This document shows positions 32,371-52,218 of a DNA stretch of 64,000 bases, piece by piece. Numbering within the stretch: position 1 is the first letter of the stretch; each line of letters opens with the position of its first letter. Origin of the DNA: Beijerinckia indica subsp. indica ATCC 9039 (GTDB lineage Bacteria; Pseudomonadota; Alphaproteobacteria; Rhizobiales; Beijerinckiaceae); assembly GCF_000019845.1 (NCBI RefSeq), contig NC_010581.1, positions 2,113,501 to 2,177,500 on the forward strand. The letters run 5' to 3'. Both the position numbers and the translations under genes were made by a program. The notes under the pieces are model-generated. The model was not told where the DNA came from, did no database searches, and worked only from the letters and a program-made list of their open reading frames with translations.

Positions 32371-34329
32371 ATGACGACCTTCTCTCTTTGCCTGACGCAA
32401 CAGCATGACCTTGCCCTGACGGCTCTCGCCGTCCTGTTTTGCTGTCTCATGGCCTTCGCCTCGATCAACCTTTTCAGGCTTGCGTCTGAAATGGAGCAAG
32501 CACAGACACCGGCCTGGCTGTTTGCGACGGCCTTGATCCTGACTTGCGGAGTCTGGACGACACATTTCGTAGCCTGCCTCGCTTACCAGCCAGGCCTGCC
32601 CATCTCCTATAATGCCGAGACCTTTCCTGTCTCGCTTCTGGCCAGCATGACAACGGCCTGGGTCGGTTTCACGCTGGCGCAACGGCGGCATTTCCGTCTC
32701 GGCGGCGCCATCATCGGCGTGTCGATCGCCATGATGCATTACATCAGCATGGCCTCTGTGAAATTTCAGGCCGAAAAAAGCTGGGATCTCCGATTTGTGG
32801 CTCTGTCGGTCCTTGTCGGCATGACAGCGGCCGGAGGCTCCATGGCCGTGTTCAAGGATGGGCGTAATCTGCGTCGCTGTCTCATGGCCTCCTTGCTCAT
32901 AGTTCTGGCGATCTGCGGCACGCATTTCCTCGGCATGGCGGCACTCACGCTCAAGGCCGTTCCGGGCATTCTCGTCGCCGATGGACAAGCCCAGTCTGCC
33001 CTGCTCGCCACGGCGCTCGCCGTCATGATGATCCTCATTGGCCTTGGTCTCCTCGGCTCGCTGACCGAACGTCGGTTGCGCACACAGGCTCTTGAGGAAA
33101 CCAGAAAACTGCGCCGCAGCCAGGACCATTTGGAGCGCGCGCAAAAGATCACCCAGACCGGCAGCGTCGAGCGGGATCTGCGAACCGGCGAGATCGAACT
33201 CTCCTCTGAAATCTACCGGATCTTCAGCCTCGACCCCAACCAGCCTTCTGCGGCGTCGCAGTCTCTCGCTCGCTTTTTTCATCCGGACGATCATCACGGA
33301 TGCCAATTTGCGATGCGGACGCCGCAATTATCCAGTGCTTTCACGGATGAGCATCTGCGTCTCGTCACGCCAGAGGGGGCGATCCGCTGGCTGCGCCATG
33401 AGGCTGAATTCATCTACGATGAAGCTGGAACACCCATTCGCTGGATCGCCACTTATACGGATGTCACGCGCATCCATGAAGCCGAGGACCGGCAGAGAAT
33501 TTTGCGGGAGGAATTGCGTGCCGCCAAGGAAATCGCCGAGGCCGCGACGCAAGCGGTGCTGAGCCTTAACGACAAACTCGAACATCGCGTCATGGAACGC
33601 ACCGCCGAACTTGTTCAGGCTCAAGAAGATCTCTTGAAGAAAGAGCGCCTGTCAACGATCGGCCAACTCACGGCCACCGTCGCGCATGAATTGCGCAATC
33701 CGCTGGGCGCCATCAAGAATACCGTCTTTACCCTCAAGGAACTCTCTGGCGCCAAAAATCTTAAACTCGACCGGCCGATCGCACGCATGGAACGCAGCGT
33801 CGACCGTTGCAACAGCATCATCACCCACCTGCTCGAATATTCGCGGGTCAGTGCCCTGAAATATGAGTGCCGTGATTTCGATCAATGGCTCGTGGATGTC
33901 CTCGATGAACTTGCCGTGCCACCGACCATCACGGTCGAACGGGTCCTTGCCGCCAGGGATCGGAATTGCGCTTTCGATCCAGAGAGATTGCGTCAGGTCA
34001 TCGTCAATCTGGTCGAAAACGCCATCCATGCTTTGAACGACGTAGGAGCGGAAAGACCTGAGAAGCGCCTCCGTCTCAGCACGCGGCAAAACGCTGGGAC
34101 GATCGAACTCACCATAGCCGACACGGGGCCCGGCATTGCCGCCGAAAACCTCACCCGTGTCTTCGATCCCCTCTTCAGCACGAAAAGCTTCGGCACTGGG
34201 CTCGGCCTCCCCGCCGTCAAGCAGATCGTCGAGCAACATGGCGGCACAATCACTTTGGCCAGCACTCTTGGCCAAGGGACTGAAGTAACCGTTGTTATCC
34301 CACATGAAAGACAGGAATTGGCCGCATGA
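32371..34329 (+). CDS. MHYT-PAS sensor histidine kinase
   Basis: Membrane sensor kinase. Residues 1-230 hold about seven membrane segments with three MHYT-type motifs: THFVACL (64-70), MMHYISMA (121-128) and THFLGMAAL (184-192), thought to bind a copper-like metal and sense a diatomic gas. A PAS fold follows (about 260-370), then a coiled coil, HisKA with H439 in VAHELRNPLGAIKN, and a HATPase with NLVENAIHAL, DTGPGI and GTGLGLP. 652 residues. It overlaps the next gene by four bases (ATGA), so three signalling genes are translationally coupled. The signal is unknown; gas or redox sensing is inference from MHYT. Confidence 0.92.
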   Translation: MTTFSLCLTQQHDLALTALAVLFCCLMAFASINLFRLASEMEQAQTPAWLFATALILTCGVWTTHFVACLAYQPGLPISYNAETFPVSLLASMTTAWVGFTLAQRRHFRLGGAIIGVSIAMMHYISMASVKFQAEKSWDLRFVALSVLVGMTAAGGSMAVFKDGRNLRRCLMASLLIVLAICGTHFLGMAALTLKAVPGILVADGQAQSALLATALAVMMILIGLGLLGSLTERRLRTQALEETRKLRRSQDHLERAQKITQTGSVERDLRTGEIELSSEIYRIFSLDPNQPSAASQSLARFFHPDDHHGCQFAMRTPQLSSAFTDEHLRLVTPEGAIRWLRHEAEFIYDEAGTPIRWIATYTDVTRIHEAEDRQRILREELRAAKEIAEAATQAVLSLNDKLEHRVMERTAELVQAQEDLLKKERLSTIGQLTATVAHELRNPLGAIKNTVFTLKELSGAKNLKLDRPIARMERSVDRCNSIITHLLEYSRVSALKYECRDFDQWLVDVLDELAVPPTITVERVLAARDRNCAFDPERLRQVIVNLVENAIHALNDVGAERPEKRLRLSTRQNAGTIELTIADTGPGIAAENLTRVFDPLFSTKSFGTGLGLPAVKQIVEQHGGTITLASTLGQGTEVTVVIPHERQELAA

Positions 34330-35078
34330 GAAAACATATTTTCATCGTTGACGACGATCTCGATCATGCCGAGAGCCTTGCCGAAATTCTCGAATTGCAG
34401 GGCCATGACGTCGAACTCGCGCAATCAGGCGAATCCGCTATCGCCCGTTTCGCCGAGAAAGATTTCGACCTCGTCTTCATGGATGTGAAACTGCCCGTCA
34501 TGAATGGCGTCGAGACTTTCTTCGCCTTTCGCCGCCTGCGGCCGCAAGCCCATGTCTTCATGATGACCGGCTATAGTGTCGAACAGCTCGTCGCCGAAGC
34601 AATCGACAATGGCGCGCTCGGCGTCCTCTATAAACCCTTCAGCGCGAATGATCTTCTCGATGCCGTGGCGCAAGTGGAGCCGCGCGGCCGTATTCTCGTT
34701 GCCGATGACAATGCCATCCTGATCGACCAGGTCGCGCCCATCCTGTCGGCGGCTGGCTATGCCGTCGAAATCGCGCATAACAGCCTCGACCAGCTCGATT
34801 GCGACCAACTCTCCGAGATCGATTGCATGATCGTCGATATGGACCGATCGCTCCTGCGTGGAATGGAACTCTGTGTCGATTTCAAGGACCGGCTCCCGAG
34901 CCTGCCGAAACTGCTCATCCTCGGGTCGGAAAACGACGAAAAAGCCGCGCAGTTTTCCTTGCTCACACAAGGCATTCTCATCAAGCCCTTCGATCCCCAA
35001 ACTCTGCTCCACACCCTTGATCATCTCCTGCATCCGCAAGAGGCAACACCAAACGCAGGTTCGAGGGCACTTGCATGA
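34326..35078 (+). CDS. double-receiver response regulator
   Basis: Two CheY-like receiver domains in tandem with no output domain. Receiver 1 (residues 3-115) has DDD at 9-11, phospho-acceptor D53 (VFMDVKLP), T81 and K103 (YKP). Receiver 2 (122-240) has DD 127-128, acceptor candidate D171 (IVDMD), and K in LIKPFD, but lacks the usual Thr/Ser-Gly (LGSEND instead), so its switching may be altered. It starts and stops within four-base ATGA overlaps with the kinases on either side. It probably passes phosphate between the upstream MHYT kinase and the downstream hybrid (inference). Confidence 0.88.
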
Positions 35079-36244
35079 GCAAAGATCGATCCCAAGGGAT
35101 CCTCGTCGTTGATGATGATCCAGATTTCGGAGAATCCCTTTTCGATATTCTTGATTATCGCGGCTATCGGGTCATCAATGTTCACGATGCGGAATCCGCT
35201 TTGGAAGCGCTACGGAACGAAAGACCCGCCGTCGCCATGGTCGATATTCGCCTTGGCGGAACATCCGGCGTCGATCTGCTGTCGCGTTTGAAGGCTGAAG
35301 CGCCCGGCCTGATCGGCATTATGATCACCGCCCATGTCGATACGCCCTCGGCGATCGAAGCCATGCGGCGGGGGGCTTATGACTATATCGACAAATCCTG
35401 CGCACCCGGCGAACTCGTCGCCATTCTCGAGCGTGCCTTCGAGACGCATCATTTGCGCATGGAAAAGTCCCGTATGATCGAAGCCCTTCGTCTCGCCAAA
35501 GAAGGAGCCGAGGCCGCCAATCAGGCGAAATCCAATTTTCTCGCCACGATCAGCCATGAATTGCGTACGCCACTCAATGCCATTATCGGCTTCTCAAATC
35601 TTATCCTCATGGAACTGATGGGACCGCTCTCCAACGAGCGCTATCGCGAATATTTACGTGATATCAATGCGAGCGGCGAACATCTCCTGTCGATCATCAA
35701 CGACATTCTCGATCTCACCAAGGCCGAGGCCGGCCAAACGGAATTGTTCGAATCCGTGATCCATCCCCGCGATGCCATCATACCGGTCGAGCGCCTCTTG
35801 ATGCCCAAGGCACGGGAAGCGGGCCTGACCCTGACCTCGAACATTACCGAACATCTGCCTCTGCTGCGCGCCGACGAACGCAAAGCCAAGCAGATCTTCC
35901 TTAATCTCCTGTCCAATGCGGTTAAATTCACACCACCCGGCGGTTCCATTGAAATCGACGCCCATCTCACTCACAAGGGCGATCTGGCGATTGCCGTGGC
36001 CGATACGGGCATCGGCATCGCGCCGGAACATATTGATCGTGTTTGCGAGCCTTTCGTGCAGATCGACAGTTCACTCAGCCGCCGTCACGATGGCACGGGG
36101 CTTGGCCTGCCGCTCGTCAAATCCTTCATGGAATTGCATGAGGGCAGCCTGCATCTCAGGAGCAAAAGCGGGATCGGCACTTGCGCCATCGTCACCTTTC
36201 CCGCGAAACGGCTGGTCCTTCCGCAGTCCCGCCTCTCGGCATGA
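35075..36244 (+). CDS. receiver-histidine kinase hybrid
   Basis: A receiver domain at the N-terminus (DDD 13-15, acceptor D57 in MVDIRLGG, T86, K107) followed by a coiled segment and a soluble histidine kinase: HisKA with H161 in [21 protein letters not shown], and HATPase with [20 protein letters not shown] and GTGLGLPLV. No membrane segment, so it is cytoplasmic and presumably controlled through its own receiver by the upstream genes. 389 residues. Last gene of the coupled triad. No DNA-binding output domain is encoded in the operon. Confidence 0.9.
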
Positions 36245-36272
36245 TCAGCGGACAACCAAGCGCCGTTCGATT

Positions 36273-38225
36273 TCAATCATTGGTCCGGAAGGCTTCGCCG
36301 CTTTCAAGCCCGCGCGTCGCCCCTTTCATCGATTCAAAAGGATTCTGTACCGTCGTGCCTTGTCGCTCTTTGGCTGCCCGCCGATAAGCCAGCAAGACAG
36401 GTTCGATCGGCGCATCTGGCGTTTGCACGCCAAGGTCGATGAGATCCCATGCCGCTTGAAGCAATGATCCAGCGCCTTCTGCGGCAAGTGCCTGGAAAGA
36501 TGCATCACTGGCATTCTTCTCCATGAGGGAAACAGCAGCCTGCCGCAAAGCAGCACGGATCTGTTCCTCGCCATAAAGCCCCTGGCGGAGCCAATTAGCA
36601 ATCTGCGCACTGATCAGGCGCAAGCTGGCGCGATCAGCGATGCGGACAAAATCCAGCCCATCCTCTTCATGCCGCTTCAAGCTGCTCTGGCCGTACTCAA
36701 TCAAGGCGACCAGCATGAGCAGGATCTGGCTGCAAAGAGTCTGGAGATCCGTCTCTGCCCCACTCTTCTTGTCCAAGACAACAGGCTCTGGCCACACGGG
36801 CGCTGAAGGCGCCTGTCCGCGATGAACGGCAAAGGCATGGAGCGCGACTGTGCTCGGCGAAGCCGCGAAAGCGCAGGCCGTGGATACAGGCGGCGCGAAA
36901 GAGAGCGCCGCCGAGGCGCTTTTCAAGCGAAGGGCTTCAGCAGCCGCATCGACAGGATCGGGAATGAAGGCAACGAAACGATTTTGCGCTGCGGCCTTGC
37001 ACGCGGCAAGAGCCCCATGAACCGCTCCCGTCTCCTCCATGAGGACGAGCTTGATCGCCTCTTTCGGCAATCTCAAAAAGCCTTCCAATCGGCTGGAAAT
37101 ATCGCAGGCGATTTGCACATCGCGGCTGCCGCGCAGCTTTGTCTTGACGGCATAGATCGCGCCCTTCGCGCTATTTGGCAGCCCGCGCCCACGCTTCAGA
37201 TCCTGGATCGCGATCAACGCCGTGACAGCCGCATCGATCAGGGTTTCCGGCACCGGCTCGCCATGTTTATCCAGGATCAGATCGCTGAGAACGGTTGGCG
37301 CCGCATGGCTTGCCATCAAGAGGCTATGCCCCGGCATGGACAAAGCCTCACTCTTAGGACCTGTAAAGGACGCATCCGTAGCCAGCAGACGTTCTGTCAC
37401 TTTGTTGTTTTTCTTGAACTGAGTCCGCAAACTTCCTTTCAAGACACCAAGCCAGTTGCGATAGGCCGCAACCTTCTCCTTGGCGTCGACACACAGAACG
37501 CTGTCTTCGAAATCGATCACGACAGCCAAGAGAGATTCAAGCTGGAGATCGGCGAGACCAGCCGGATGCTCACGTCCAATCGGATGACGACGATCGATCC
37601 GCAGAACGAGATACCCTTCTTCATGACGAAGCAGAAGCGCCGTAGGACGCTCCGCGCGTCCCTGAAAGCCACTATATTGCTCCGGATTTTTCAGTTCCGC
37701 GCGCTCGCCCGGCGCAAATTCGGCGAAGAATTTTCCCCCGGCCACGCCATAGAGCTTGACGTCGCCATGGCTTCCGTTTGCCAAAGGCACAATCTCATCG
37801 AGAAAGGCGCACACCGTTTCGATGACCTTGGCGCCGCGCACCTTATTGTAACTCGTCCCGCGTTCCGCACCATCGGCCTCGGAGATCAAGTGCGAGCTAT
37901 AAAGCGCGTCATAAAGGCTGCTCCAGCGCGCATTGGCGGCATTGAGGATATAACGGGGCTCTGATGCCGGCACGACGATTTGCGGACCCAGGAGCCGGGC
38001 CGCGATCGGATCAAGAGTCTCCGCAGAAGGAGCTTCAGTCGTGGCGGATGTTCCCTCCCCCTCCGCATCCGCCGCGCGCAAAAGCGGGGAAAACTCGTCG
38101 ATCAGCTTGGTCAGGCCAGTCCAGAATTGCAGCGCGCCAATGCCCGTGCCCGACAAGGCTTCATAAGTGACGAAATCATGCAGAGACTCATTAATGGTCA
38201 AGCTGCCGATCTTGATGGGTGGCAT
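36273..38225 (-). CDS. divergent malate synthase G paralog, probably altered activity
   Basis: 650 residues, colinear with the GlcB encoded at 50035-52218 over most of its length (shared blocks: [64 protein letters not shown]). An ungapped comparison by eye shows that the position of catalytic Arg337 of GlcB ([10 protein letters not shown]) is Ser306 (LLMASHAAP). The two Mg-ligand positions keep acids (E398, D426) and the late catalytic Asp is kept (D531), but the glyoxylate-binding GFLD is DPVD. About 65 residues between D426 and D531 are missing relative to GlcB, including the [21 protein letters not shown] region. Normal malate synthase activity is therefore doubtful. GAGGAAAAGC precedes the ATG. 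It is convergent with the signalling triad; an unknown gene precedes it on the same strand. Confidence 0.82.
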   Translation of the reverse strand: MPPIKIGSLTINESLHDFVTYEALSGTGIGALQFWTGLTKLIDEFSPLLRAADAEGEGTSATTEAPSAETLDPIAARLLGPQIVVPASEPRYILNAANARWSSLYDALYSSHLISEADGAERGTSYNKVRGAKVIETVCAFLDEIVPLANGSHGDVKLYGVAGGKFFAEFAPGERAELKNPEQYSGFQGRAERPTALLLRHEEGYLVLRIDRRHPIGREHPAGLADLQLESLLAVVIDFEDSVLCVDAKEKVAAYRNWLGVLKGSLRTQFKKNNKVTERLLATDASFTGPKSEALSMPGHSLLMASHAAPTVLSDLILDKHGEPVPETLIDAAVTALIAIQDLKRGRGLPNSAKGAIYAVKTKLRGSRDVQIACDISSRLEGFLRLPKEAIKLVLMEETGAVHGALAACKAAAQNRFVAFIPDPVDAAAEALRLKSASAALSFAPPVSTACAFAASPSTVALHAFAVHRGQAPSAPVWPEPVVLDKKSGAETDLQTLCSQILLMLVALIEYGQSSLKRHEEDGLDFVRIADRASLRLISAQIANWLRQGLYGEEQIRAALRQAAVSLMEKNASDASFQALAAEGAGSLLQAAWDLIDLGVQTPDAPIEPVLLAYRRAAKERQGTTVQNPFESMKGATRGLESGEAFRTND

Positions 38226-38402
38226 TCTATGCTTTTCCTCGCAGCCAAGAACTTCTCTTCATTGATCGCGGACAAAACGCGGAAGAGAGACTCCATAAAC
38301 TCTTAAGTCCGATGGTCCAGCCTGTCGCCGACCCCTTATCGCGTTTTGAGCAGCCTCGTGAAACGGCGTCAACCACCCTTGGTCCAGGGAGGCACGCTCG
38401 TC

Positions 38403-39296
38403 TCAAGCCATGGGCATGGCTGTAGGCGACAAACCGGCCAGAATTGTTTCTCCCGCGGCCCGGTAGGCTTCATGGTTCGTGTTCATGTCCACGACTGGAG
38501 AGACGCGATGATGGTTAGGTGGCCGCGTGCGCCCGTAAACCTCACCATCCTCACCCCTGAAACTGGCTATGATGTTCAACAGGCTCCGCCGCAAATACTT
38601 TTTGCCGGGCGTATAGAAAGTCCCGCTCATTGCCACGGTCTGCGTGACGTCGGGCGCCGCGTGCAATGTATTTTCGCTGAAGCGAATGAGACCGCCGCTC
38701 GGAGCCGAGACACGGCCATGGCGCCGGAAGCGATCGTCAAAATCCTGAGCGGAGGCCGCGAGTTGAGCCGGCCTGATACGCCTTCCCATGACCGAAGGAT
38801 CAAAAAATTCAGTCCCTCGGACGGAAGAATTGCCTCCCTCGCCTGGATCGATGGCGGTCACGACATAGATCACCATCTTGCCTTCGGTTGCATGCATATG
38901 GATTTGATCGAACAATAAATGTTCCTGGCGCTCATAATCCATGCGGAAGAATTGCAAGCTGACCTGGCAAAGATCCGCGATGCGGCCTCCCGCGTGATGA
39001 TAGAAATCCTCCATGATCAGCGCGGTTGTCGGCAGGAGAAAAGCGAGATTGGCAGGCAGGCAGATCGTGCTCGTACCCTGGGCCTTGATTTCGAAAGCGC
39101 CAACATTGAAATCCTCGCCCTTCGCGAAAACTGAAAGGTCCGGCACCATGCCGACGACAGCCGGCAGATCACGATTGGTATCGAGAAAATCCCGTGGATC
39201 ACGCGCTTGCGGTGCGAGGCCTTCAGCGGCTCTTGCCTCGGGCGATGGCGTGATGATCAAACCCTCCCGGGAAAGATCGGCATATTCTATCTTCAT
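38403..39296 (-). CDS. unrecognised 297-residue soluble protein
   Basis: Coding character is good, but I do not recognise the family. No signal peptide or membrane segment. The middle holds histidines and acids in a beta-rich setting: YERQEHLLFDQIHMHATEGKMVIYVVTAIDPGEGGNSSV, and SGGLIRFSENTLHAAPDVTQTVAMSGTFYTPGKKYLRRSLLNIIASF. An HxH/HxE-like pair followed about 90 residues later by a single His with nearby Arg is reminiscent of double-stranded beta-helix (cupin or 2-oxoglutarate/Fe oxygenase) enzymes, but this is only a pattern guess. It lies 177 bp upstream of the malate synthase paralog on the same strand, so the two may form a unit. It is divergent from the regulator cassette at 39519. 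Confidence 0.7.
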   Translation of the reverse strand: MKIEYADLSREGLIITPSPEARAAEGLAPQARDPRDFLDTNRDLPAVVGMVPDLSVFAKGEDFNVGAFEIKAQGTSTICLPANLAFLLPTTALIMEDFYHHAGGRIADLCQVSLQFFRMDYERQEHLLFDQIHMHATEGKMVIYVVTAIDPGEGGNSSVRGTEFFDPSVMGRRIRPAQLAASAQDFDDRFRRHGRVSAPSGGLIRFSENTLHAAPDVTQTVAMSGTFYTPGKKYLRRSLLNIIASFRGEDGEVYGRTRPPNHHRVSPVVDMNTNHEAYRAAGETILAGLSPTAMPMA

Positions 39297-39469
39297 GGGT
39301 CAACATCCCAAGCCCCCATTCCAAGGCATTTCCCGAAGGCAATTCCTTCACGCATCATCGCGATGCGAATCTTATGGGCTGGCGGGGAGCGCATAAGGGG
39401 AGCGGAATGGACGTTTGCCAAAAAGCAAGGATTGGACCTGTCAGCGTGGGCCGAGCCACTTGACGGCCT

Positions 39470-39507
39470 ATGTTTCATATGTCAGTTAAATATGACATAT
39501 GAAACAT
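39470..39507 (+). promoter_or_regulatory. 38-bp operator with perfect 15-bp arms
   Basis: ATGTTTCATATGTCA (39470-39484) and its exact reverse complement TGACATATGAAACAT (39493-39507) flank an 8-base AT-rich spacer. Each arm itself contains the palindrome CATATG. It ends 11 bases before the proposed GTG start of the ArsR-like regulator, so it is probably an autoregulatory operator for the cassette. It could also act on the divergent gene starting at 39296. Confidence 0.85.
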
Positions 39508-39518
39508 GGGGGGTGTTC

Positions 39519-39875
39519 GTGGCGACCGGAGACCAGCTCTTGATGGCCCTTTCCGCGCTCGCCAATTCGCATCGCTTGCGTATCCTTGCCTGTCTCACCA
39601 CAAAGGGGCGCACTTACATCAGCCAGCTCGCGCGCGATGTCGGCATCAGCCGGCCGCTTTTGCATCTGCATTTGCAAAAACTTGAAGATGCCGGCCTTGT
39701 CACCGGCAAGCTCGAGCTTTCAAGCGATGGCAAGGCGCTCAATTTTTTCGAAGTCACGGATTTCAACATCACCTTAAACCCATCGAGCATAGCCGACGCG
39801 GTCAAGTCCCTGACGACATCGCCCCCGAAAGCCGATGCGGACACATTGTCTCAAAAGGGAAACCAGCATGACTGA
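39519..39875 (+). CDS. ArsR-like winged-helix transcriptional regulator
   Basis: 118 residues. Winged-helix fold: ALANSHRLRILACLTTKGRTYISQLARDVGISRPLLHLHLQKLEDAGLVTGKLELSSDGKALNFFEVTDF, with the recognition helix around SRPLLHLHLQKLEDAG and a beta wing after it. No cysteine pair or other metal site of ArsR/SmtB type is seen, so the signal is unknown. I choose GTG 39519 (after GGGGGG); an ATG at 39492 would lie inside the operator. The gene overlaps the next by eight bases. It probably controls the three membrane-protein genes that follow and itself. Confidence 0.83.
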   Translation: MATGDQLLMALSALANSHRLRILACLTTKGRTYISQLARDVGISRPLLHLHLQKLEDAGLVTGKLELSSDGKALNFFEVTDFNITLNPSSIADAVKSLTTSPPKADADTLSQKGNQHD

Positions 39876-40095
39876 ACATGCACAGATCTTTTTCTGGGTG
39901 ACGCTCCTCGCCCTCATTACCGTCTGGTCCATTTTCGGCATGAAATATTTCTCTGCCGCCCGTCAGGCCCGGCTTCGTTTCGCGGCGGATTCCGATTACC
40001 GGAAATTGGCGGAAAAGATCGCCGATGCGCAAACATCGAGCGTCAACGCTCTCGCCGCATTACAGACTGACTTCGCCGAATTGAAAACCGGCTGA
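39868..40095 (+). CDS. small single-span membrane protein
   Basis: 75 residues: one hydrophobic segment (IFFWVTLLALITVWSIFGMKYF, about 6-27), then a charged helix likely to form a coiled coil (ARQARLRFAADSDYRKLAEKIADAQTSSVNALAALQTDFAELK). ATG 39868 overlaps the end of the regulator gene, with AAAAGGGAAACC as ribosome site. No family name comes to mind, but the position between an ArsR-like regulator and a DUF3817 protein suggests a dedicated membrane partner. Confidence 0.75.
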   Translation: MTEHAQIFFWVTLLALITVWSIFGMKYFSAARQARLRFAADSDYRKLAEKIADAQTSSVNALAALQTDFAELKTG

Positions 40096-40129
40096 CTAAA
40101 ATCGAAACCGTCTTGAAGGAAGTCGAATA

Positions 40130-40468
40130 ATGGCCGCTCCCCTCGATAAAAAGGCTGAAGAGCGAAGGGATTTACAGCTCATGCAATGGGCTTCGCTTCT
40201 CGAAGGCACAACCCTCGTCCTTCTCGTTTTCATCGCTGTGCCGCTCAAGCACCTAGGCGGCTGTCCGATCGCGACCTCCATCATGGGCCCGATCCACGGC
40301 CTGGCCTTTCTCTTCTATGTCTGGATGATGTTTCGGCTCACCGCTTCTGCGGATTGGTCGAAGGGCGAGATGGCCCGCCTGCTCATTGCAGCCCTTATTC
40401 CCTTCGGCGCTTTCGCGAACGAGCGTATCCTGCGCAAAAAAGCCGCCGAAATCGACGCGACAGCCTGA
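40130..40468 (+). CDS. DUF3817 membrane protein
   Basis: 112 residues with three hydrophobic segments and the family pattern ASLLEGTTLVLLVFIAVPLKHLGG...GPIHGLAFLFYVWMMF...ALIPFGAFANERIL. The E-G-x-T, GPIHG and P-F-G-x-F motifs are typical of DUF3817, whose biochemical role is unknown. It is third in the regulator cassette, 34 bp after the small membrane protein and 7 bp before the CopD-like gene. Confidence 0.88.
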   Translation: MAAPLDKKAEERRDLQLMQWASLLEGTTLVLLVFIAVPLKHLGGCPIATSIMGPIHGLAFLFYVWMMFRLTASADWSKGEMARLLIAALIPFGAFANERILRKKAAEIDATA

Positions 40469-40475
40469 GCTCTTC

Positions 40476-40907
40476 ATGGACTATTATCTTTGGTTCAAGG
40501 CGCTGCATATTGCGGCCGTGGTGACATGGATCGGCGGCATGCTGGTCATGGGCATGGCTCTTTCGCATCTCCTCGCCTCACCTCAGCCATCCAAGCCGGA
40601 AAATGTCCGCCTTGTCGAAGCAATCCGGCTATGGGATGGGCGCGTCACCACCCCCGCCATGCTGCTTGCCTGGGCGCTCGGCATCACCATGGCGGTGACG
40701 GCCCGCTGGTTTCCGGCTCCCTGGCTCATGGTGAAACTGGTTTTCGTCCTGGCTCTTTCAGCTCTGCATGGCCTCGAAGCCGGCGCCTTGCGCAAATGGG
40801 AGCGCGACCCAGAGGGATCACCCCCCGCATTTCTGCGTCATGCGCCACGTCTGATCGTGGCGGTGGTGATCGCGATAGCGATCCTGGCCGTCGTCAAACC
40901 GTTCTAA
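40476..40907 (+). CDS. CopD/HemJ-like four-helix membrane protein
   Basis: 143 residues with four hydrophobic segments. It starts YYLWFKALHIAAVVTWIGGMLVMGM, a pattern (ALH-x-x-x-V-x-W-x-GGM) shared by CopD, DUF2269 and HemJ-type proteins, where the His can bind haem or metal. A further His occurs in SALHGLEAG. Protoporphyrinogen oxidase (HemJ) is less likely, as HemJ continues with a longer conserved C-terminal part. ATG 40476 is 7 bp after the DUF3817 stop; last gene of the cassette. Confidence 0.75.
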   Translation: MDYYLWFKALHIAAVVTWIGGMLVMGMALSHLLASPQPSKPENVRLVEAIRLWDGRVTTPAMLLAWALGITMAVTARWFPAPWLMVKLVFVLALSALHGLEAGALRKWERDPEGSPPAFLRHAPRLIVAVVIAIAILAVVKPF

Positions 40908-40909
40908 AT

Positions 40910-41491
40910 TTATACGGGCGCTCCCGCTTTGGCGGCTTCCGATACCTCGATCAGCTGGCCGGTTTTGACATCATAGATAAAGCCATGAATCGGAATTCGG
41001 CCAGGGACGAGTGGATGCGAACGAATACGCTCCACATCCTCCACCACACTCGCGGCCAGATCCTTGAAACTCAGCCATTTGACATAATGGCCATGAACAC
41101 TGCCGGGGCCTGCCCCGTGATCATGCCAACCCTGGTCGTCGATCGTCGCCGTCTCTAAACTCTGCTCCAGCAAATCGCCAATAATATCATCGTCGAAAAG
41201 CTGCATGCCGCAATCGGTGTGGTGGATCACAAACCATTCGCGCGTGCCAAGCAATTTATAACTGATGACCAGCGATCTGATCGCATCATCACTGGCGCGC
41301 CCACCGGCATTGCGGATGACATGGGCATCCCCCTCGGCGAGACCAGCATATTTCGCGGGATCAAGACGCGCGTCCATACAGGTCAAAATGGCAAAGCGAC
41401 GGGCCGGCGGCAGTGCGAGCGTGCCCTTCTCGCCAAAGGAATCCACATAGGTTTGATTGGCGGCAAGGATCTCGCCACGGATCTCGGACAT
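40910..41491 (-). CDS. beta-carbonic anhydrase
   Basis: Zinc enzyme for CO2/bicarbonate interconversion. The zinc ligands are visible: Cys in [16 protein letters not shown] with the Asp-Arg dyad, then HHTDCGM with His and Cys. [23 protein letters not shown] is typical. It resembles the short, single-domain beta class (about 165-195 residues) without the N-terminal arm of plant-type enzymes. Two starts are possible (41500 or 41491); [15 protein letters not shown] fits the ribosome site GGAG better. It is convergent with the membrane cassette and ends two bases from it. Confidence 0.9.
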
Positions 41492-41664
41492 TCGCTCCAT
41501 CTCCCCCTTTGCTCGGGCTCATTCCGCGGCTTTCTCACCGCGAAGGGCGATCCTGCCGACTGGCGTCAGAGCCATCATAGGCCAGACTCTCTGTTAATCA
41601 ATAAAAACCATGGTTTTTATTGATCATAAGGCTACGATGCAGCACAGCCTCTGATTGAAAGGCG

Positions 41665-42381
41665 TCAGCCCTTCGCTTGTGCTAGTCTGTCCAGAAGTTC
41701 CGTCAGCAGCAGGCGCTCGCCGGGTGTTAACGCATCAGCCTCGTCGAGATGAGTGCGAAGTCCGACCGCAAGTGATGTCAGGTCATCGTGCGACTGCACT
41801 GGTCGTTCCGTAACCAACGAAGCGAGGACGGCTTCCAGGGCAAGGGTCGAAAGCTGCGGATCACGCTGTCCTTCAGGCGTGGAGAGAAGGGTCGCCACGG
41901 TGCCGACCCCAGCAGCATGAATCAGCGCAACAGCCCGTTCCACCGGCATTTTCAGACGGCCGGAGCGAGCGATCCGCTCGACCCGTTTCTTCAGGACAGC
42001 GATGCCGGCAAGCACGGCCGGCGATGGAGGGCCTGCCGCGCCAATTTCGTTTATGATCGCGAAGACCGCCGGATTGCCGAGTCCGAACGCGACATAGGAA
42101 TCCCACGCATCGCGCAAATCTTGGACCGGATCGGGATGCGGCTCCGCCGCGACCTTCTGCGCGATAAAGGCTGTCAGCCCATGTTCCGCCACGGCATCGA
42201 GCAATCCGCGCTTCTCGCCAAATAAGCGGTACAATGTCGGCGCCTGTACTCCCGCCGCTGCTGCCACGGCCCGTGTCGTCAGCGCCGCGACACCGCCGCT
42301 GGCGATGAGCCTGGACGCGGCTTCGAGAATCTTAGAGCGCGCGTCCGGCTCCTCTGTCTCGCTGTTAGGTCGAGCTGCCAT
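41665..42381 (-). CDS. TetR family transcriptional regulator
   Basis: 238 residues. N-terminal helix-turn-helix: RSKILEAASRLIASGGVAALTTRAVAAAAGVQAPTLYRLFGEKRGLLDAVAEHG (about 15-68), a typical TetR DNA-binding domain, followed by a helical ligand domain. Start at ATG 42381 (MAARPNSE), though the frame opens at 42435. Divergent from an NmrA-type oxidoreductase with a small palindrome between them, the usual layout of a repressor and its target. Ligand unknown. Confidence 0.9.
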   Translation of the reverse strand: MAARPNSETEEPDARSKILEAASRLIASGGVAALTTRAVAAAAGVQAPTLYRLFGEKRGLLDAVAEHGLTAFIAQKVAAEPHPDPVQDLRDAWDSYVAFGLGNPAVFAIINEIGAAGPPSPAVLAGIAVLKKRVERIARSGRLKMPVERAVALIHAAGVGTVATLLSTPEGQRDPQLSTLALEAVLASLVTERPVQSHDDLTSLAVGLRTHLDEADALTPGERLLLTELLDRLAQAKG

Positions 42382-42436
42382 GATGATGTGTAGCATTGAC
42401 CCGCCACCGCCGATAGCGCTGATTGCATCAGTCAAT

Positions 42437-42450
42437 TATCAATGATATCA
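42437..42450. promoter_or_regulatory. candidate TetR operator
   Basis: TATCA-A-TGATA (42437-42447) overlaps the perfect palindrome TGATATCA (42443-42450), in the short gap between the divergent TetR and oxidoreductase genes. The position is right for a shared operator. The size is modest, so chance is possible. Confidence 0.4.
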
Positions 42451-42484
42451 CTTTGTCATTTCCACCGATAATGGGAAGGCAAGG

Positions 42485-43342
42485 ATGATCGTCGTTACCG
42501 GGGCAAACGGGCAACTCGGGAAAGCAATCATAGAGGGTCTGCTGCGTCGCCTTCCGGCCGACCAAATCATTGCGAGCGTGCGCGACCCCGCAAAAGCGTC
42601 CGCGCTCAGTGCGCAGAGCATCGAGGTTCGCGCAGGAGACTTCGCTGATGCGGCAAGCATAAAGAGCGCGTTTGCGGGTGCCGACCAAGTCTTGATCGTT
42701 TCTGCCGACAAGCTCGGCGAGGAGGCGCGGCGACTGCATCACACCGCGATCGAGGCTGCCCGAGAAACTGGCGTAGGCCGCATCCTTTACACCAGCCACA
42801 TGGGTGCGCGGGCCGGTTCGCCCTTCGCGCCAGGCGATCAGCATGCGGGGACCGAAGCGGACCTTGCGGCGAGTGGTCTGGCCTACACGTCCTTGCGCCA
42901 CGGCTTTTATGCCGAGAGCTGCCTGCATATGGTGGGGGAAGCCCTGAGAGCTGGCGAATTGCGCGTGCCCGAAGATGGCCCGGTCAGCTGGACCGCGCGG
43001 GACGATCTGGCGGAAGCAGATGCGGCCATCCTCGTCGATGAGGGGAAATGGGACGGCATCACGCCGCCGCTGACGGCCTCGCAGGCGGTGACAATGGCTG
43101 AGCTCGCAACACTCGCATCCGAGGTGGCCGGACGCGAGGTGCGGCACATCACCGTTTCCGATGAGGAATGGACAGAAGCGAAGATCGCGGCAGGCATGCC
43201 CGCCCTTTATGCCGAAATGCTGTTGGATGTGTTCGTCGCAGCCCGCCGCGGTGATTTTGCCGCTACCGATCCGGCATTGGAGACGCTTATTGGCCGCGCA
43301 CCCCGAACGATGCGCGAGATACTCGGCGCGTTCGGGCTGTGA
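42485..43342 (+). CDS. NmrA-like NAD(P)-binding oxidoreductase (QorB type)
   Basis: 285 residues, atypical short-chain dehydrogenase. MIVVTGANGQLGKAIIEGL is the dinucleotide-binding start, SVRDPAKASAL follows strand two, and GRILYTSHMGARAGSPFAPGDQHAGTEADLAASGLAYTSLRHGFYAES is typical of QorB-like NAD(P)H:quinone reductases. No Tyr-x3-Lys active site. ATG follows GGAAGGCAAGG. Divergent from a TetR gene that probably represses it; induction by a quinone or aldehyde would be typical (inference). Confidence 0.85.
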   Translation: MIVVTGANGQLGKAIIEGLLRRLPADQIIASVRDPAKASALSAQSIEVRAGDFADAASIKSAFAGADQVLIVSADKLGEEARRLHHTAIEAARETGVGRILYTSHMGARAGSPFAPGDQHAGTEADLAASGLAYTSLRHGFYAESCLHMVGEALRAGELRVPEDGPVSWTARDDLAEADAAILVDEGKWDGITPPLTASQAVTMAELATLASEVAGREVRHITVSDEEWTEAKIAAGMPALYAEMLLDVFVAARRGDFAATDPALETLIGRAPRTMREILGAFGL

Positions 43343-43420
43343 AAGCTGGCTTGCCGCCGAGCGACATGGTTTCGCAACAAGCGGACCGGGTGCTTTCCAC
43401 CAGTCTCGGCTATTTCCGAT

Positions 43421-46264
43421 TCAGGTGGATTCGCCAAGGTCCGGCTCGCCGCAATGCGTCAAGATGACTTTGCGCACCTGCTGCTCAAGCTGCAGCACCG
43501 ACGAGAAATCCGTCCCCGTTGGTTGTATAGCTTCTTCTATGCTCAAGCTGAGCGGTGCCCGTCGCGGGAACCATTGCCCGGGCCGCAGCATGACGCGCGT
43601 TCCCTGCAAGATCCCCGGCACGATGGGAAGATCGGCTTCGCTAGCGATCTTGAAGGCGCCGAGATGAAAAGCTGCAAGCCCGGCCCTTCTTGTGAAGGTT
43701 CCTTCCGGAAACATGACGAGCATGCGGCTCTGCCGCGCGGCAGCGATGATCATCTCGATGTCTTTGATGTCCCCCATCATTTCTATGCGCTCGACGAAGA
43801 AAGTGCCGAGTCGGCGCAAAAACGGAATGATGAGCATTCCCCCGAGAAATCGCTTCTTCGCGACAAAGGTCGGAATGCCGGGGAGGAATGCCGCAAGGAT
43901 GATGACATCCAGATAGCTCGAATGATTGAAGGCGAGCAGAGCCTTGCCGGGCGGAATATGGTCGAGGCCAGAGACCGCGACCTGAATGCCCAGCACTGCG
44001 AGCGCAATGCGGCCGATCGCCCTCGTAACGGCCCAGCGCCATTCGAGCCGTGGCAGGAGCATGACGGCAATCCACGCCAAGCCATAGCCAAGACAGATGA
44101 CACTCCACCACCAGAGTGCATAAAGCGTCGCACTCCCGCGCGCCATCACGCGGATGAATTGCGGTCCAAGGCCCGCCAGCCGTAGGCGCAAAACCTGCAA
44201 CCATAAGGAACCCTGCGCCACACCAATCTGATGGCGTTGATACAGTTCTCGTGTAGCGCTTCGACGGATCTTGCCACTTGATGTCTTGGGCACAGTCCGC
44301 GGCGGCGCGAGGACGACTTCGTCTGGCGGCGTGCCGCATATGGCGCTTGTGAGCTCATGGGCGCGCGTCTCTATTTCATGGCGCGCGGCGGGATCCGTCT
44401 CACGCGTTTCGGCCACGATCACCAGGCGCTCGGTTCCCGATACTCGATCGGTCATGCCAAAGACCGCGACACTGCCCCTGCGGATACCAGGGATTGTGGC
44501 AATGGCGTCCTCGATCTCCTGCGGATAGATATGCCGCCCCGCGCGAATGATGATGTCCTTGATCCGGCCGGTAATATAGACATCGCCTTCAGCCATATAG
44601 GCGCGGTCGCCGCTATCGAGCCAGCCGTCGTGGATGAGATCTCTCGTCTTGGCCTCGTTACAAAAATAACCGGAGGTCGCTGACGGGCCTCGAAACTCGA
44701 GCCGGCCCTCCTGCCTGTCTCCGATCTCATGCCCGGCCGGATCGACGATCCGGATTTCATGTCCCGGCAGCGGTCGGCCGCAGGCGACCAACTCCAGCGG
44801 ATTTTGGTCGTTCGCCTTGGCGGGTTCGGCGACACCCCGGCTCATCAGGGCATTACGGTCGATCCGATCGATCAATGGGCCTCGACCAAGGGTTGAAAAG
44901 GCCAGGCCGACGGCGTTTTCGGCAAGCCCATAAACCGGCATCATCACTTCAGGCCGGAAGCCAAAGGCCGCAAACTTCTCGGTGAAGCGGCGCAATGTAT
45001 AGGGGGATACAGGCTCCGCCCCATTCGCAACCGCACGCAACGAGCTGAGATCAAGGCCGGTGAGATGGGCCGTGTCGATCTTGGCCGTACAGAGTTCGAA
45101 GCCGAAATTCGGCGCGGCGCTCAAAGTGGCGCGAAAGCGATGAATGGCCCAGAGCCAGCTTTCCGGACGCACGAGAAAGCTCAGCGGCGACATCACATAA
45201 AGCGGGGCCCCGAAATAGAGGCAGCCGAACCAGGCACCGATCAAGCCCAGATCATGGTAGAGAGGTAGCCAACTCACGAAAACATCGGCCGAATTGGCCT
45301 CGAGCGCCGCCCCCATGGCTTTGACATTGGCCAACAGATTGGCATGGCTCAAGATCACCCCTTTGGGATCGCCCGTGCTTCCGGATGTATATTGGATCAA
45401 GGCGGTCGATACTGGAGTGCTCGCAGGGGGCAAGCGCATGTCACCAGCTTCCGCCATCAGTTCGGCGACGCTCGCGACAGATTCAAGTTCGCTCAATTGT
45501 GCCCGCAGCAATGCCGCCACGCTCAGCCCTTCCGGCATGGTGATCAGCATACGCGACCCGGCATTGTTCAATATACCGGCTTGGCGGCGCAGATGGTCTT
45601 CAATCTGCGATGGCCGCATGGGCGGATAGATCGGAACTGGCACGGCGCCGACATAAAGAATCGCAAAGAAGGCGCAGAAGAACTCGATGGAGGTCGGCAG
45701 CATCAGCGCGACTCGATCCCCTGGCCCGATGTCACGGGCGATGAGACCCCTGGCGATCTGGCGCGCCTGCGCCGCGAGCCGGCCATAGCTCAACTGATCC
45801 AGGATTGTGCTGTCATCCTGCAGCAAAGTAATGTGCAGACGGTCTGGATGGCGCGCGACATGCCAGTCGAGGACTTCCGTCAAGGTCTGCGCTTCTGTCG
45901 CGGCAAGCACCAAAGGCAGCGCCGGGATCGGGTGAAGATCGGCAGGTTTGCCTCCCTCTCCTGCAAGCGCCTCGTTAAGGGCCCGAAGCAGATCGGCCAT
46001 GGTTTCGGCCGCTCCGACGCGTGCCACCGGCAGTCTGACGTGAAAGGCTCGTTCGACCCTCAGGATCAGTTCCGTGCGCGCAAGGCTGTCGATGCCTAAA
46101 TCGTCTTCAAGCCGGCTCGCCAAAGTCAACGCGAGTCTGCGCGCCCGCTGCGGATGAAGCTCCTGCACAAAGCTGCGCACAAGGACCACGAGATCTTGCG
46201 TGAGATTGCGTGGATCGTCCTTGGCGGGTGATGCGGTCTGCGGCGACTCTCTGCGAGGCTCCAT
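43421..46264 (-). CDS. ACP - fatty acyl-AMP ligase - PlsC acyltransferase fusion
   Basis: 947 residues in three modules. An acyl-carrier domain (about 20-100) has the 4'-phosphopantetheine serine S60 in DDLGIDSLARTEL. An adenylation domain (about 120-690) has the AMP motif TSGSTGDPKG at 293-302 and the stretches WLPLYHDLGLIGAW, MSPLSFLVRPESWLWAIHRFRATLSAAPNFGFELC and TGRIKDIIIRAGRHIYPQEIE; the first of these resembles fatty acyl-AMP ligases rather than CoA ligases. After two hydrophobic segments (about 715-750) a PlsC domain has NHSSYLD (780-786) and FPEGTFTR (852-859), the NHx4D and FPEG motifs. A likely path is fatty acid to acyl-AMP, to acyl-ACP in cis, to a lysolipid or glycerophosphate at the membrane. 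ATG 46264 preferred over TTG 46276. Confidence 0.88.
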   Translation of the reverse strand: MEPRRESPQTASPAKDDPRNLTQDLVVLVRSFVQELHPQRARRLALTLASRLEDDLGIDSLARTELILRVERAFHVRLPVARVGAAETMADLLRALNEALAGEGGKPADLHPIPALPLVLAATEAQTLTEVLDWHVARHPDRLHITLLQDDSTILDQLSYGRLAAQARQIARGLIARDIGPGDRVALMLPTSIEFFCAFFAILYVGAVPVPIYPPMRPSQIEDHLRRQAGILNNAGSRMLITMPEGLSVAALLRAQLSELESVASVAELMAEAGDMRLPPASTPVSTALIQYTSGSTGDPKGVILSHANLLANVKAMGAALEANSADVFVSWLPLYHDLGLIGAWFGCLYFGAPLYVMSPLSFLVRPESWLWAIHRFRATLSAAPNFGFELCTAKIDTAHLTGLDLSSLRAVANGAEPVSPYTLRRFTEKFAAFGFRPEVMMPVYGLAENAVGLAFSTLGRGPLIDRIDRNALMSRGVAEPAKANDQNPLELVACGRPLPGHEIRIVDPAGHEIGDRQEGRLEFRGPSATSGYFCNEAKTRDLIHDGWLDSGDRAYMAEGDVYITGRIKDIIIRAGRHIYPQEIEDAIATIPGIRRGSVAVFGMTDRVSGTERLVIVAETRETDPAARHEIETRAHELTSAICGTPPDEVVLAPPRTVPKTSSGKIRRSATRELYQRHQIGVAQGSLWLQVLRLRLAGLGPQFIRVMARGSATLYALWWWSVICLGYGLAWIAVMLLPRLEWRWAVTRAIGRIALAVLGIQVAVSGLDHIPPGKALLAFNHSSYLDVIILAAFLPGIPTFVAKKRFLGGMLIIPFLRRLGTFFVERIEMMGDIKDIEMIIAAARQSRMLVMFPEGTFTRRAGLAAFHLGAFKIASEADLPIVPGILQGTRVMLRPGQWFPRRAPLSLSIEEAIQPTGTDFSSVLQLEQQVRKVILTHCGEPDLGEST

Positions 46265-46451
46265 GACAAAAGCCAATGGATTCTGGTGGCGCGATAATCT
46301 TGTGGTTCAGTCCGGACCAACCGGCAAACCGCTCTTCCCGCACAATGCTCAGGGATGAGCCTCTGCCGAGCTCTGATCTGATGAGCATGTTGGGAAACGC
46401 CGAAAGACGCCCGGAGGCGTTCAAAAAAGCAGAATTTTAAGCAAAATGAAT

Positions 46452-46525
46452 TGGCTGGGGGACCTGGATTCGAACCAAGATTAACGGAGTCAGAGTCCGC
46501 TGTTCTACCATTGAACTATCCCCCA
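46452..46525 (-). tRNA. tRNA-Gln (CUG)
   Basis: On the minus strand the acceptor TGGGGGA pairs with TCCCCCA. The D loop is AGTTCAATGGTAGAAC, the anticodon stem-loop GCGGA-CTCTGAC-TCCGT has anticodon CTG, and the T arm is GGTTCGAATCC. Discriminator G and encoded CCA. 74 nt. Confidence 0.95.
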
Positions 46526-46629
46526 CCGGACCCCATCAAGCGGCGCATAAGGCGCTTCATCTCGACGGCGGTGGATCGTGGCGTTATTAAGTTTTCCGTC
46601 CCTTCCTGTCAACGGGTTGAAGCCCAGGT

Positions 46630-47127
46630 TCAAGGTAAATCCTTGTCCGCGGTTTCATGGACCCAGGCCAAGCGGTCGAGCGCGCCTTGCAGGATGAAAG
46701 CCGCGGCGAGCTTGTCAACGACGGCGGCCCGCTTGGCGCGCGAGGCGTCCTGCGCGATGAGATCACGCGTGACCGCGGCTGTCGAAAGCCTTTCATCCCA
46801 ATAGCAAAAGGGCCGGCTCGTCAGCCCCGAAAGGCTGCGCACGAAAGCCTCCGTCGCCTGGACCCTCGGCCCCGCTGAACCATCCATGTTGAGTGGCAAG
46901 CCGATCACAAAAGCGGCGACATCGAATTGGTCAGCCAAGGCGAGGAGACGCTCCGCATCCTTGGTGAATTTGGTCCGGCGAATCGTCTCGAGCGGAGTCG
47001 CGATCCGACGCTCCACATCAGACAGAGAAAGACCGATGGTTTTGGTCCCGAGATCAATGCCGATCAGACGTTGACGCGGACCAAGCAAGGGTTTCAGTTC
47101 GACCAGGGGCAGAACCTTTGTCGCCAT
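46630..47127 (-). CDS. ruvX: putative pre-16S rRNA nuclease (YqgF/RuvX)
   Basis: 165 residues, RNase H-like fold. [17 protein letters not shown] at residues 22-38 carries the first catalytic Asp, [16 protein letters not shown] the second block, and [15 protein letters not shown] the third with its acids, as in YqgF. The family processes the 5' end of 16S rRNA in E. coli; older annotation calls it a Holliday-junction resolvase. GGGAGG precedes the ATG. It stands alone here. Confidence 0.93.
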
Positions 47128-47240
47128 AGGATTTTGGCCTCCCGCAGGTTATGCTCCAGCGAATAACAAATGCATCTTACCTTGGCGTATGGACGCTCAA
47201 ACCGGCCCGTGCAAAGAAAATATTTCCCTCCCGTAGAACC

Positions 47241-48590: not shown

Positions 48591-48621
48591 CGCTTGAGAC
48601 TCAAACGTCAGATTTTATCCA
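48577..48621. terminator. 45-nt near-perfect palindrome across a stop codon
   Basis: TGGATAAAATCTGACG (48577-48592) and CGTCAGATTTTATCCA (48606-48621) are exact reverse complements; between them TTGAG-A-CTCAA is also palindromic. The TGA of the transporter gene lies in the left arm. It stands between convergent genes and lacks a T-run, so it may stop transcription from both sides or protect 3' ends. Confidence 0.75.
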
Positions 48622-48692
48622 CCAGAACAATAACGTGTGGGCATGCCCGGCTTGAACCCAATCATAAAACAACCCTCGTTGTGAGGCGGGGT

Positions 48693-50034: not shown

Positions 50035-52218
50035 ATGGGTTATCTTTCGATCAACGGCCTTTCGGTCGATTCGGAACTTCACGATTTTATCGTCAAGGAA
50101 GCTATTCCCGGCTCTGGCGTCAGCGCCGAACAATTTTGGACTGGCCTTGCCGATCTCGTCGCCGCGAAAAGCGCGACGAACCGCGCCTTGCTCGCCAAGC
50201 GCGATGAATTGCAGGCCAAGATCGATGCTTATTATCGCTCCGGCGGCTCAAAGGATCCGGCTGCGACGGAAGCCTTCCTGCGCGAGATCGGCTATCTTCT
50301 GCCCGAGCCCGCGCCCCAGGCGATCGAGACGCAAAATGTCGACGATGAAATCGCCACGATCGCCGGGCCACAGCTCGTCGTGCCGGGCTCCAATGCCCGC
50401 TATGCGCTGAATGCCGCCAATGCCCGTTGGGGCAGCCTCTATGACGCGCTCTATGGCACGGATGCGATTCCGGAAACCAATGGCGCGGAGCGCGGCAAGG
50501 GTTTCAACCCCACGCGTGGCGCGCTCGTCGTCGCCAAGGCCAAGACCATTCTCGACCAGTCCGTGCCGCTTGACGGCGCGTCCTATGCGGATGTCACGGC
50601 CTATCAGATCGAGGGGAGCACCCTGAAGGCCACGACGAAGGATGGCAAGAGCATCGGCCTGAAGACGCCCGAGCAATTCGCTGGTTTCACCGGCACCAAG
50701 GAAGCGCCAGCCACCATCCTTTTGCGTCATAACCATCTCCATTTCGAGCTCGTCGTCAATGCCAACCATCCGGTCGGCAAGACGGATCCGGCCGGCCTCG
50801 CCGATGTCATCATCGAGTCCGCCGTGTCGACCATCATCGACATGGAAGACAGTGTTGCCGTGGTCGATGCCGCCGATAAAGTGGCGCTTTATCGCAATAT
50901 TCTCGGCCTGATGCAGGGCACGCTTTCGGACACATTCGTCAAGAATGGCGCTTCGCTGACCCGCACCCTGCATGACGATCGGATCTACCAGACTGGCGAT
51001 GGCGGCACCTTGCGCCTGCATGGGCGCAGCCTGCTGCTCATCCGCAATGTCGGCCATCATATGTTCACCGACGCGGTCCTTGATGCGTCGGGTGCCGAAA
51101 TCCCGGAAAATATGCTCGACGGCATGGTGACAGCGCTTGTCGCGCGCCATGATCTTTATGGCACCCATGAACACCATAACAGCCGCAAGGGTTCGGTCTA
51201 TATCGTCAAGCCCAAAATGCATGGGCCACAGGAAGTGGCTTTTGCCAATTCCGTGTTCGAACATATCGAACTGGCGATCGGTCTGCCCGCGAATACGCTG
51301 AAGATCGGCATCATGGACGAGGAACGGCGCACGACCGTCAATCTGATGGCGGGGATCCAAGCGGCCTCCAAGCGTATTGTCTTCATCAATACGGGCTTCC
51401 TCGATCGCACCGGCGACGAAATCCATACGGCGATGGAAGCCGGCCCCATGGTGCGCAAGAACAGCATCAAGAACGAAGCCTGGCTGAAAGCCTATGAAGA
51501 CAATAATGTGGATGTCGGCCTGGCGAGTGGCCTGCCCGGCCATGCTCAGATCGGCAAGGGCATGTGGGCCGCTCCCGATGCCATGGCCGATATGCTGACT
51601 CAGAAGATCGGTCATCCGCGCGCCGGCGCCAATACGGCCTGGGTGCCCTCGCCCACCGCCGCGACCTTGCATGCGCTTCACTATCATGAAGTGGATGTCT
51701 TCGAGCGGCAGAAGGAACTGGCTGGACGGCCGCGTGCCAAACTGCATGATCTTCTAACCGTGCCGGTCGCCAAAACGACCTATTCTGCGCAGGAGATTCA
51801 GGAAGAGCTCGACAATAACGCCCAGGGTCTGCTCGGCTATGTCGTGCGCTGGATCGACCAGGGCGTCGGCTGTTCGAAAGTGCCGGACATTCACAATGTC
51901 GCCTTGATGGAAGATCGCGCGACCTTGCGGATTTCCAGCCAGCATATTGCCAACTGGCTATATCACAAGATCGTCACCGAGAGCCAAGTCCTGGAAACCC
52001 TGAAGCGCATGGCGGTCGTCGTCGATCAGCAGAATGCCGGCGATTCCGCCTACCGGCCGATGGCACCCGCCTTCGACGGCATCGCTTTCAAAGCGGCCTG
52101 CGATCTCGTCTTTAAGGGACGTGAACAGCCAAACGGCTATACGGAATTCCTGCTGCATTCACGCCGTCGCGAGGTCAAGGCCGAACAGGCCCAAAGTGGC
52201 CAAGCCTCTGCGGCTTAA
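50035..52218 (+). CDS. glcB: malate synthase G
   Basis: Condenses glyoxylate with acetyl-CoA to malate. 727 residues from ATG 50035 (after GGAGAG), close to the usual 720-725; the frame extends to 49969. Catalytic residues match the E. coli enzyme: R337 ([10 protein letters not shown]), Mg ligands E429 (GIMDEERR) and D457 (NTGFLDRTG), D627 ([11 protein letters not shown]) and the redox-sensitive C613. The substrate loop [25 protein letters not shown] is intact. glcDEF follow 356 bp later on the same strand, which together oxidise glycolate and feed the glyoxylate to this enzyme. A degenerate paralog lies at 36273-38225. Confidence 0.97.

Follow-up and report, generated by a model that had tools for sequence, protein, structure and literature searches.

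In the Escherichia coli malate synthase, Arg338 stabilises the enolate and the oxyanion, and replacement of Arg338 by Lys leaves 6.6% of the activity, whereas replacement of Asp631 by Asn leaves none, according to the available part of PMC3832036. A similar account of the arginine is given for the Pseudomonas aeruginosa enzyme in the available part of PMC2708195. The CitE-like superfamily (malyl-CoA lyase, malyl-CoA thioesterase and haloarchaeal malate synthase) is related in its barrel chemistry, which involves Mg, Glu/Asp ligands and a lid Asp. Its members lack the large insertion of malate synthase G (MSG), and conservation of the arginine extends across the whole superfamily and the malate synthases, as the same part of PMC3832036 describes. 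Here we describe MSG2, an MSG paralog encoded in a 64,000-nucleotide stretch of the genome of Beijerinckia indica subsp. indica ATCC 9039. The whole stretch, called the window, covers positions 2,113,501 to 2,177,500 of the 4,170,153-base contig NC_010581.1 (one of three contigs that make up the 4,418,616-base genome). In the open-licence literature, no report was found on the malate synthase of Beijerinckia indica, on a malate synthase pseudoenzyme or, by title, on such a paralog. In MSG2, the catalytic arginine is replaced by serine. The evidence leans slightly towards MSG2 being an MSG pseudoenzyme of a tailed Beijerinckiaceae clade with a non-catalytic role, for which docking of its C-terminal tail to a partner would be the likeliest mechanism.

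The features of MSG2 and of the canonical GlcB used for comparison are as follows, in positions of the window.

36273..38225, minus strand: MSG2, MSG paralog, 650 aa (translation of the open reading frame, with profile and sequence matches)
36276..36344, minus strand: C-terminal tail, residues 628-650 (NPFESMKGATRGLESGEAFRTND), common to the tailed clade and not in GlcB
37308..37310, minus strand: Ser306 codon (AGC), at the position of the GlcB catalytic Arg337
37032..37034, minus strand: Glu398 codon, first Mg-ligand position
36948..36959, minus strand: DPVD (residues 423-426) replacing GFLD, with Asp426 at the second Mg-ligand position (gapped in larger MAFFT alignments)
36861..36947, minus strand: residues 427-455, a short stretch where GlcB is longer by 52 residues including the GMW motif
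36633..36635, minus strand: Asp531 codon, catalytic base position
37503..37514, minus strand: DFED, residues 238-241, conserved acidic motif
50035..52218, plus strand: canonical GlcB, 727 aa, with glcD-, glcE- and glcF-like genes downstream, to 56825

The open reading frame of MSG2 starts with ATG and has 650 codons with no internal stop. For GlcB, an alternative start at 49969 in the mechanical list of open reading frames gives 749 aa. MSG2 is homologous to MSG (GlcB; TIGR01345, PRK02999; PDB 5oas, 1n8w and 1d8c) over nearly its whole length. It matches the NCBIfam family PRK02999 with 438.9 bits (E 3.9e-131) and 11 malate synthase G sequences of the PDB (best E 7.6e-104), and the N-terminal segment, the insertion domain, most of the barrel and the C-terminal domain are recognisable. 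In Pfam, MSG_insertion was found with 88.6 bits and MS_TIM-barrel with 29 (cut-off 26.4); MS_N and MS_C gave no match at E 0.001, and no CitE-like family was among the profile-scan matches at E 0.001. MSG2 falls below both curated cut-offs, with 401.7 against 989.15 for TIGR01345 and 438.9 against 565 for PRK02999, whereas GlcB clears both.

The segment from GPQ to the Asp of GFLD/DPVD is 346 residues long in both MSG2 and GlcB. In the alignment, a constant offset of 31 relates Gly111, Arg337, Glu429 and Arg447 of GlcB to Gly80, Ser306, Glu398 and Arg416 of MSG2. Thus, the ungapped comparison is sound, and Ser306 stands opposite Arg337 (E. coli Arg338). By phmmer, too, Ser306 is aligned with the catalytic arginine of the enzymes from P. 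aeruginosa and M. tuberculosis; the P. aeruginosa rows further pair Asp426 with the Asp of GFLD. Because MAFFT alignments of larger sets gap the GFLD/DPVD stretch of MSG2, the assignment of Asp426 as a metal ligand depends on the equal segment lengths and on phmmer. With Glu398 and Asp426, the letters of both Mg ligands are kept, and Asp531 corresponds to the base Asp627 of GlcB (E. coli Asp631). On the glyoxylate side, GFLD is changed to DPVD and the GMW segment is absent. MSG2 is an MSG homologue but should not be filed as malate synthase G, because it lacks defining features that were looked for.

The earlier note on this DNA had described a complete GlcB with a 650-residue colinear paralog, a serine at the catalytic arginine, acidic residues at the Mg-ligand and base positions, and DPVD in place of the GFLD glyoxylate contacts, and all of these agree with the results above. 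Its figure of about 65 missing residues corresponds to 52 residues with GMW between the Mg-ligand Asp and the SP motif, plus 13 before the base; to these must be added 31 residues missing near the N-terminus and 19 gained at the C-terminus. The minus strand and the tail are also additions. The statement that the metal site survives holds for the letters. However, MSG2 keeps 99 of the 206 near-invariant canonical columns (91 in the protein of the second Beijerinckia genome, G001, and 84 in both jointly), and the 6 of 7 catalytic positions that it keeps are only mildly above this background. The metal-site letters are therefore weak evidence. In the 70 columns in which neither Beijerinckia protein has the canonical residue, the same new residue is found in 39, which is not higher than the 60% identity of their remaining columns. 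Such a result is compatible with a new pocket but is no proof of it.

The tail of MSG2 has about 23 residues with L-E-x-G-E-A and a final Asp, and it is predicted to be disordered by two models. Using a text pattern, the tail was detected in 8 of 175 proteins (GlcB and the 174 matches listed), namely P0002-P0009. A profile of the tail found MSG2 as the sole match in its own genome, and 7 of 397 sampled genomes of the family at E <= 1e-6 (G000, G001, G009, G073, G139, G149 and G254); the remaining family matches (E 0.009 to 0.1) were judged to be chance. Among 397 genomes of the order, family genomes included, the profile at E <= 0.01 gave the own genome and three weak matches, and no convincing new carrier; the best weak match (G455, E 1.9e-4) is a 568-aa frame, by eye an FAD-type oxidoreductase, and was judged to be chance. 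A protein search with the tail as the query returned only the query from 14 candidates and missed P0003, which is 62% identical to MSG2; that search is hence uninformative. A genome scan with the clade alignment, in which both peptide patterns matched generic malate synthases, gave at least 80 loci and is silent on the distribution of the tail. A second MSG is present in six of the seven tail-bearing genomes, complete in five and as fragments at contig ends in G254; none was found in G073, a genome 78% complete. In G254, contigs C8, C9, C15 and C21 hold two MSG copies, both interrupted at contig ends as though the assembly had broken within similar copies; a tail variant is present on one of the pieces.

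Trees were built without the tail; the first was midpoint-rooted, and in the second no single branch separated the chosen outgroup from the other rows. A single clade (SH-aLRT 99 in the second tree) unites the 12 tailed rows with the tailless P0010, and the midpoint-rooted tree agrees with it. By its tail and by its tree position, MSG2 belongs to this tailed clade. GlcB of the window is placed elsewhere and is not the nearest relative of MSG2, so that MSG2 is not a recent copy of GlcB. Within the clade, a nine-row subclade (SH-aLRT 100) consists of P0002, P0003, P0004, P0005, P0006, P0008 and the proteins of G001, G009 and G073. P0008 is from Methylovirgula sp. HY1 and is identical to the G139 protein; Beijerinckia and Methylovirgula are both placed in the Beijerinckiaceae. 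P0008 (L145:9488-11617) is publicly named malate synthase G; it passes PRK02999 (861.1 against 565) and fails TIGR01345 (781.2 against 989.15).

The catalytic residues were compared with 247 canonical rows, namely 167 proteins, including GlcB, and 80 loci, chosen at 690-790 aa, a length choice that could hide deletion variants. No canonical row is changed at any of the seven catalytic positions. Thr630, Trp536, Lys392 and GMW are present in all 247 rows, and GFLD in 245, with GFMD in the other two. Both GFLD and GMW are found in all 166 non-tailed protein matches listed (715-770 aa), which are the best of a limited set of scored candidates. Among the 175 proteins (GlcB and the matches listed), the catalytic arginine could be read by motif in 174, giving 171 Arg, 2 Ser and 1 Gly; P0162, missed by the motif, is in the 247-row set with its Arg unchanged. 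Two records labelled Acinetobacter phage (CAKLQH020000011.1 and CAKLQF020000009.1) contain a complete glcB; these are possibly host sequence and have no bearing on MSG2.

The tailed proteins form a graded series. P0007 and the G149 protein keep all seven positions, GFLD, Thr630, Trp536 and GMW, and the G149 protein has Leu at Lys392. P0009 has Gly for the arginine with the other checked sites intact. In the subclade, Thr630 (three residues after the base) and GFLD are lost in 9 of 9 rows, and further lesions are present in each of its four lineages. P0002, P0003 and the G001 protein have Ser for Arg and lack the GMW segment; in these three, the MAFFT gap at the second Mg position was not counted as a loss. 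P0005 has Asn for the base Asp, and the G009 and G073 proteins have Glu for the Mg-ligand Asp (read in one alignment only for G073). P0004, P0006 and P0008 lack the GMW segment and keep the seven positions. HY1 P0008 thus shares with MSG2 the tail, the clade and the missing GMW stretch, but keeps the arginine.

MSG2 evolves under purifying selection. The gene is intact in both Beijerinckia genomes examined, that of the window and G001, and the two proteins are 63% identical, with Ser306 and the surrounding MASHAAP shared. P0003 also has Ser for Arg and is identical to the G001 protein at 643 of 658 residues. Between the two genomes, the change in MSG2 is 0.52 at the third codon position against 0.28 and 0.21 at the others. 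The blocks that are kept well are residues 1-51 (88% and 80%), 77-126 (84% and 80%), 252-276 (80%) and 327-351 (92%), together with the tail (82%). With a Nei-Gojobori script, dN 0.291, dS 1.34 and a ratio of 0.22 were obtained for MSG2, and dN 0.093, dS 0.93 and a ratio of 0.10 for GlcB; these ratios and those of the neighbours below are rough because dS is close to saturation. MSG2 is constrained, though it evolves faster than GlcB. The tail was held while the core drifted in Beijerinckia. In all 15 pairs that include a Beijerinckia protein (P0002 or that of G001), similarity is higher in the tail than in the core, for example 0.61 against 0.40 with HY1.

Three genes of a two-component cluster are convergent with MSG2 in both Beijerinckia genomes.

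32371..34329, plus strand: MHYT-PAS histidine kinase
34326..35078, plus strand: response regulator receiver protein
35075..36244, plus strand: receiver and histidine kinase protein, the convergent neighbour of MSG2, syntenic in G001

The kinase (dN 0.350, dS 1.27, ratio 0.28) and the regulator (0.258, 0.95, 0.27) diverge as fast as MSG2, and the receiver-kinase more slowly (0.120, 1.13, 0.11). The values for marC are 0.229, 1.09 and 0.21, and those for the amidase 0.051, 0.88 and 0.06. The upstream side of the G001 stretch gave no match to the window. The tailed gene of HY1 has an mraW-type gene on one side and, on the other, glcF/glcE/glcD homologues followed by a 2-hydroxyacid dehydrogenase gene. 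The location of the HY1 gene is the sole pointer to glycolate/glyoxylate metabolism, in which a role is plausible. The tailed gene of G009 adjoins DUF2252 and glycosyltransferase genes, and G073 has matching genes. The promoter scan gave 0 promoter-like sites, the terminator scan 3 sites against 3.4 expected, and the Rfam scan of 35900-52500 one tRNA. Elsewhere in the window, 43424-46276 (minus strand) encodes a long single chain with phosphopantetheine-site, AMP-binding and acyltransferase matches.

The earlier note had left the choice between another reaction and a non-catalytic role, and the proteins with the same Arg to Ser change for which it proposed a search are that of G001 and P0003. 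Several features could suit a new enzyme, in which the Mg/acid site is kept in a rebuilt pocket free of arginine, for example for acyl-CoA/malyl-CoA hydrolysis or retro-aldol cleavage. Glu398, Asp426, Asp531 and DFED are retained in both Beijerinckia proteins, which also share MASHAAP around Ser306 and have common replacements near the site (Trp536 to Phe, Cys613 to Ser, His396 to Arg and Met625 to Ile). However, the losses differ between the sister lineages, among them the base in P0005 and the Mg-ligand Asp in G009 and G073, the shared new residues do not exceed the identity of the other columns, and the GMW stretch is missing. We regard a new enzyme as unlikely: loss of catalysis would fit these patterns better than gain of one new shared reaction, and a non-catalytic role is favoured because the related lineages lost different catalytic parts and the GMW stretch is gone. 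It is improbable that MSG2 has remained a malate synthase in which another arginine, such as Arg365, takes the place of the lost one. The change to Lys alone costs the E. coli enzyme more than 90% of its activity (available part of PMC3832036), MSG2 has alterations or losses at the glyoxylate loop, Trp536 and GMW, and a canonical GlcB is encoded 12 kb away. MSG2 has probably lost malate synthase activity. The suggestion that it regulates GlcB found no direct support, as about 12 kb separates the two genes, which are on opposite strands, and GlcB is not the nearest relative of MSG2.

Slow decay of a redundant, weakly constrained MSG, unbroken so far and with no function of its own, would agree with the presence of the canonical GlcB, with the faster evolution of MSG2 and with the stem of the Beijerinckia rows, 1.48-1.69 changes per column, compared with a distance of at most 0.2 from one GlcB protein to the other. 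Nevertheless, the frames are intact in both genomes, dN/dS is far below 1 and similar to that of the neighbouring kinase and regulator, and the tail was retained while the core diverged. The claim that this is not random decay is thus upheld, and we give slow decay little weight. Some results weigh against a tailed pseudoenzyme. The base, the Mg positions and DFED keep their letters, and the Beijerinckia rows on the long stem were flagged for odd composition. The full-length P0010 lies within the tailed clade without a tail, and a clade of the 12 tailed rows alone is rejected (AU p 0.0145). One gain and one loss (in P0010) would be the simplest history of the tail, but two gains could also account for it because of this rejection. 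In pairs that lack a Beijerinckia protein, the tail exceeds the core in similarity in only 7 of 21 (22 of 36 overall, among nine chosen rows), and the tail is unexceptional in these other lineages. A neighbouring gene common to the genera compared was not found (L149, the G254 fragment, was part of one comparison only).

For the pseudoenzyme that we favour, the following course may be proposed. A full-length Beijerinckiaceae MSG would have gained a short disordered C-terminal tail. Malate synthesis would then have been lost in the subclade of MSG2, where all members seen have an altered glyoxylate loop and a different residue three positions after the base, and individual lineages would have further lost the arginine, the base, a Mg ligand or the GMW segment. 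Selection would have retained the MSG fold and the tail. The tail probably docks to a partner protein, and the fold, possibly with a metal or small acid still bound, would serve as an adaptor, a scaffold or a sensor of a ligand, plausibly in the metabolism of glycolate/glyoxylate. More tentatively, and perhaps doubtfully, the whole tailed subclade may consist of malate-synthase-fold adaptors or sensors, in which the altered pocket reads the glyoxylate, metal or CoA state and a C-terminal short linear motif recruits a partner.

The catalytic residues of MSG are invariant in the 247 canonical rows, whereas the tailed lineage lost them in various ways with the gene and the new tail still constrained. 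The natural series from intact to dismantled sites is material for studying the transition from an enzyme to a non-enzyme, and the tail is a peptide directly usable as bait.
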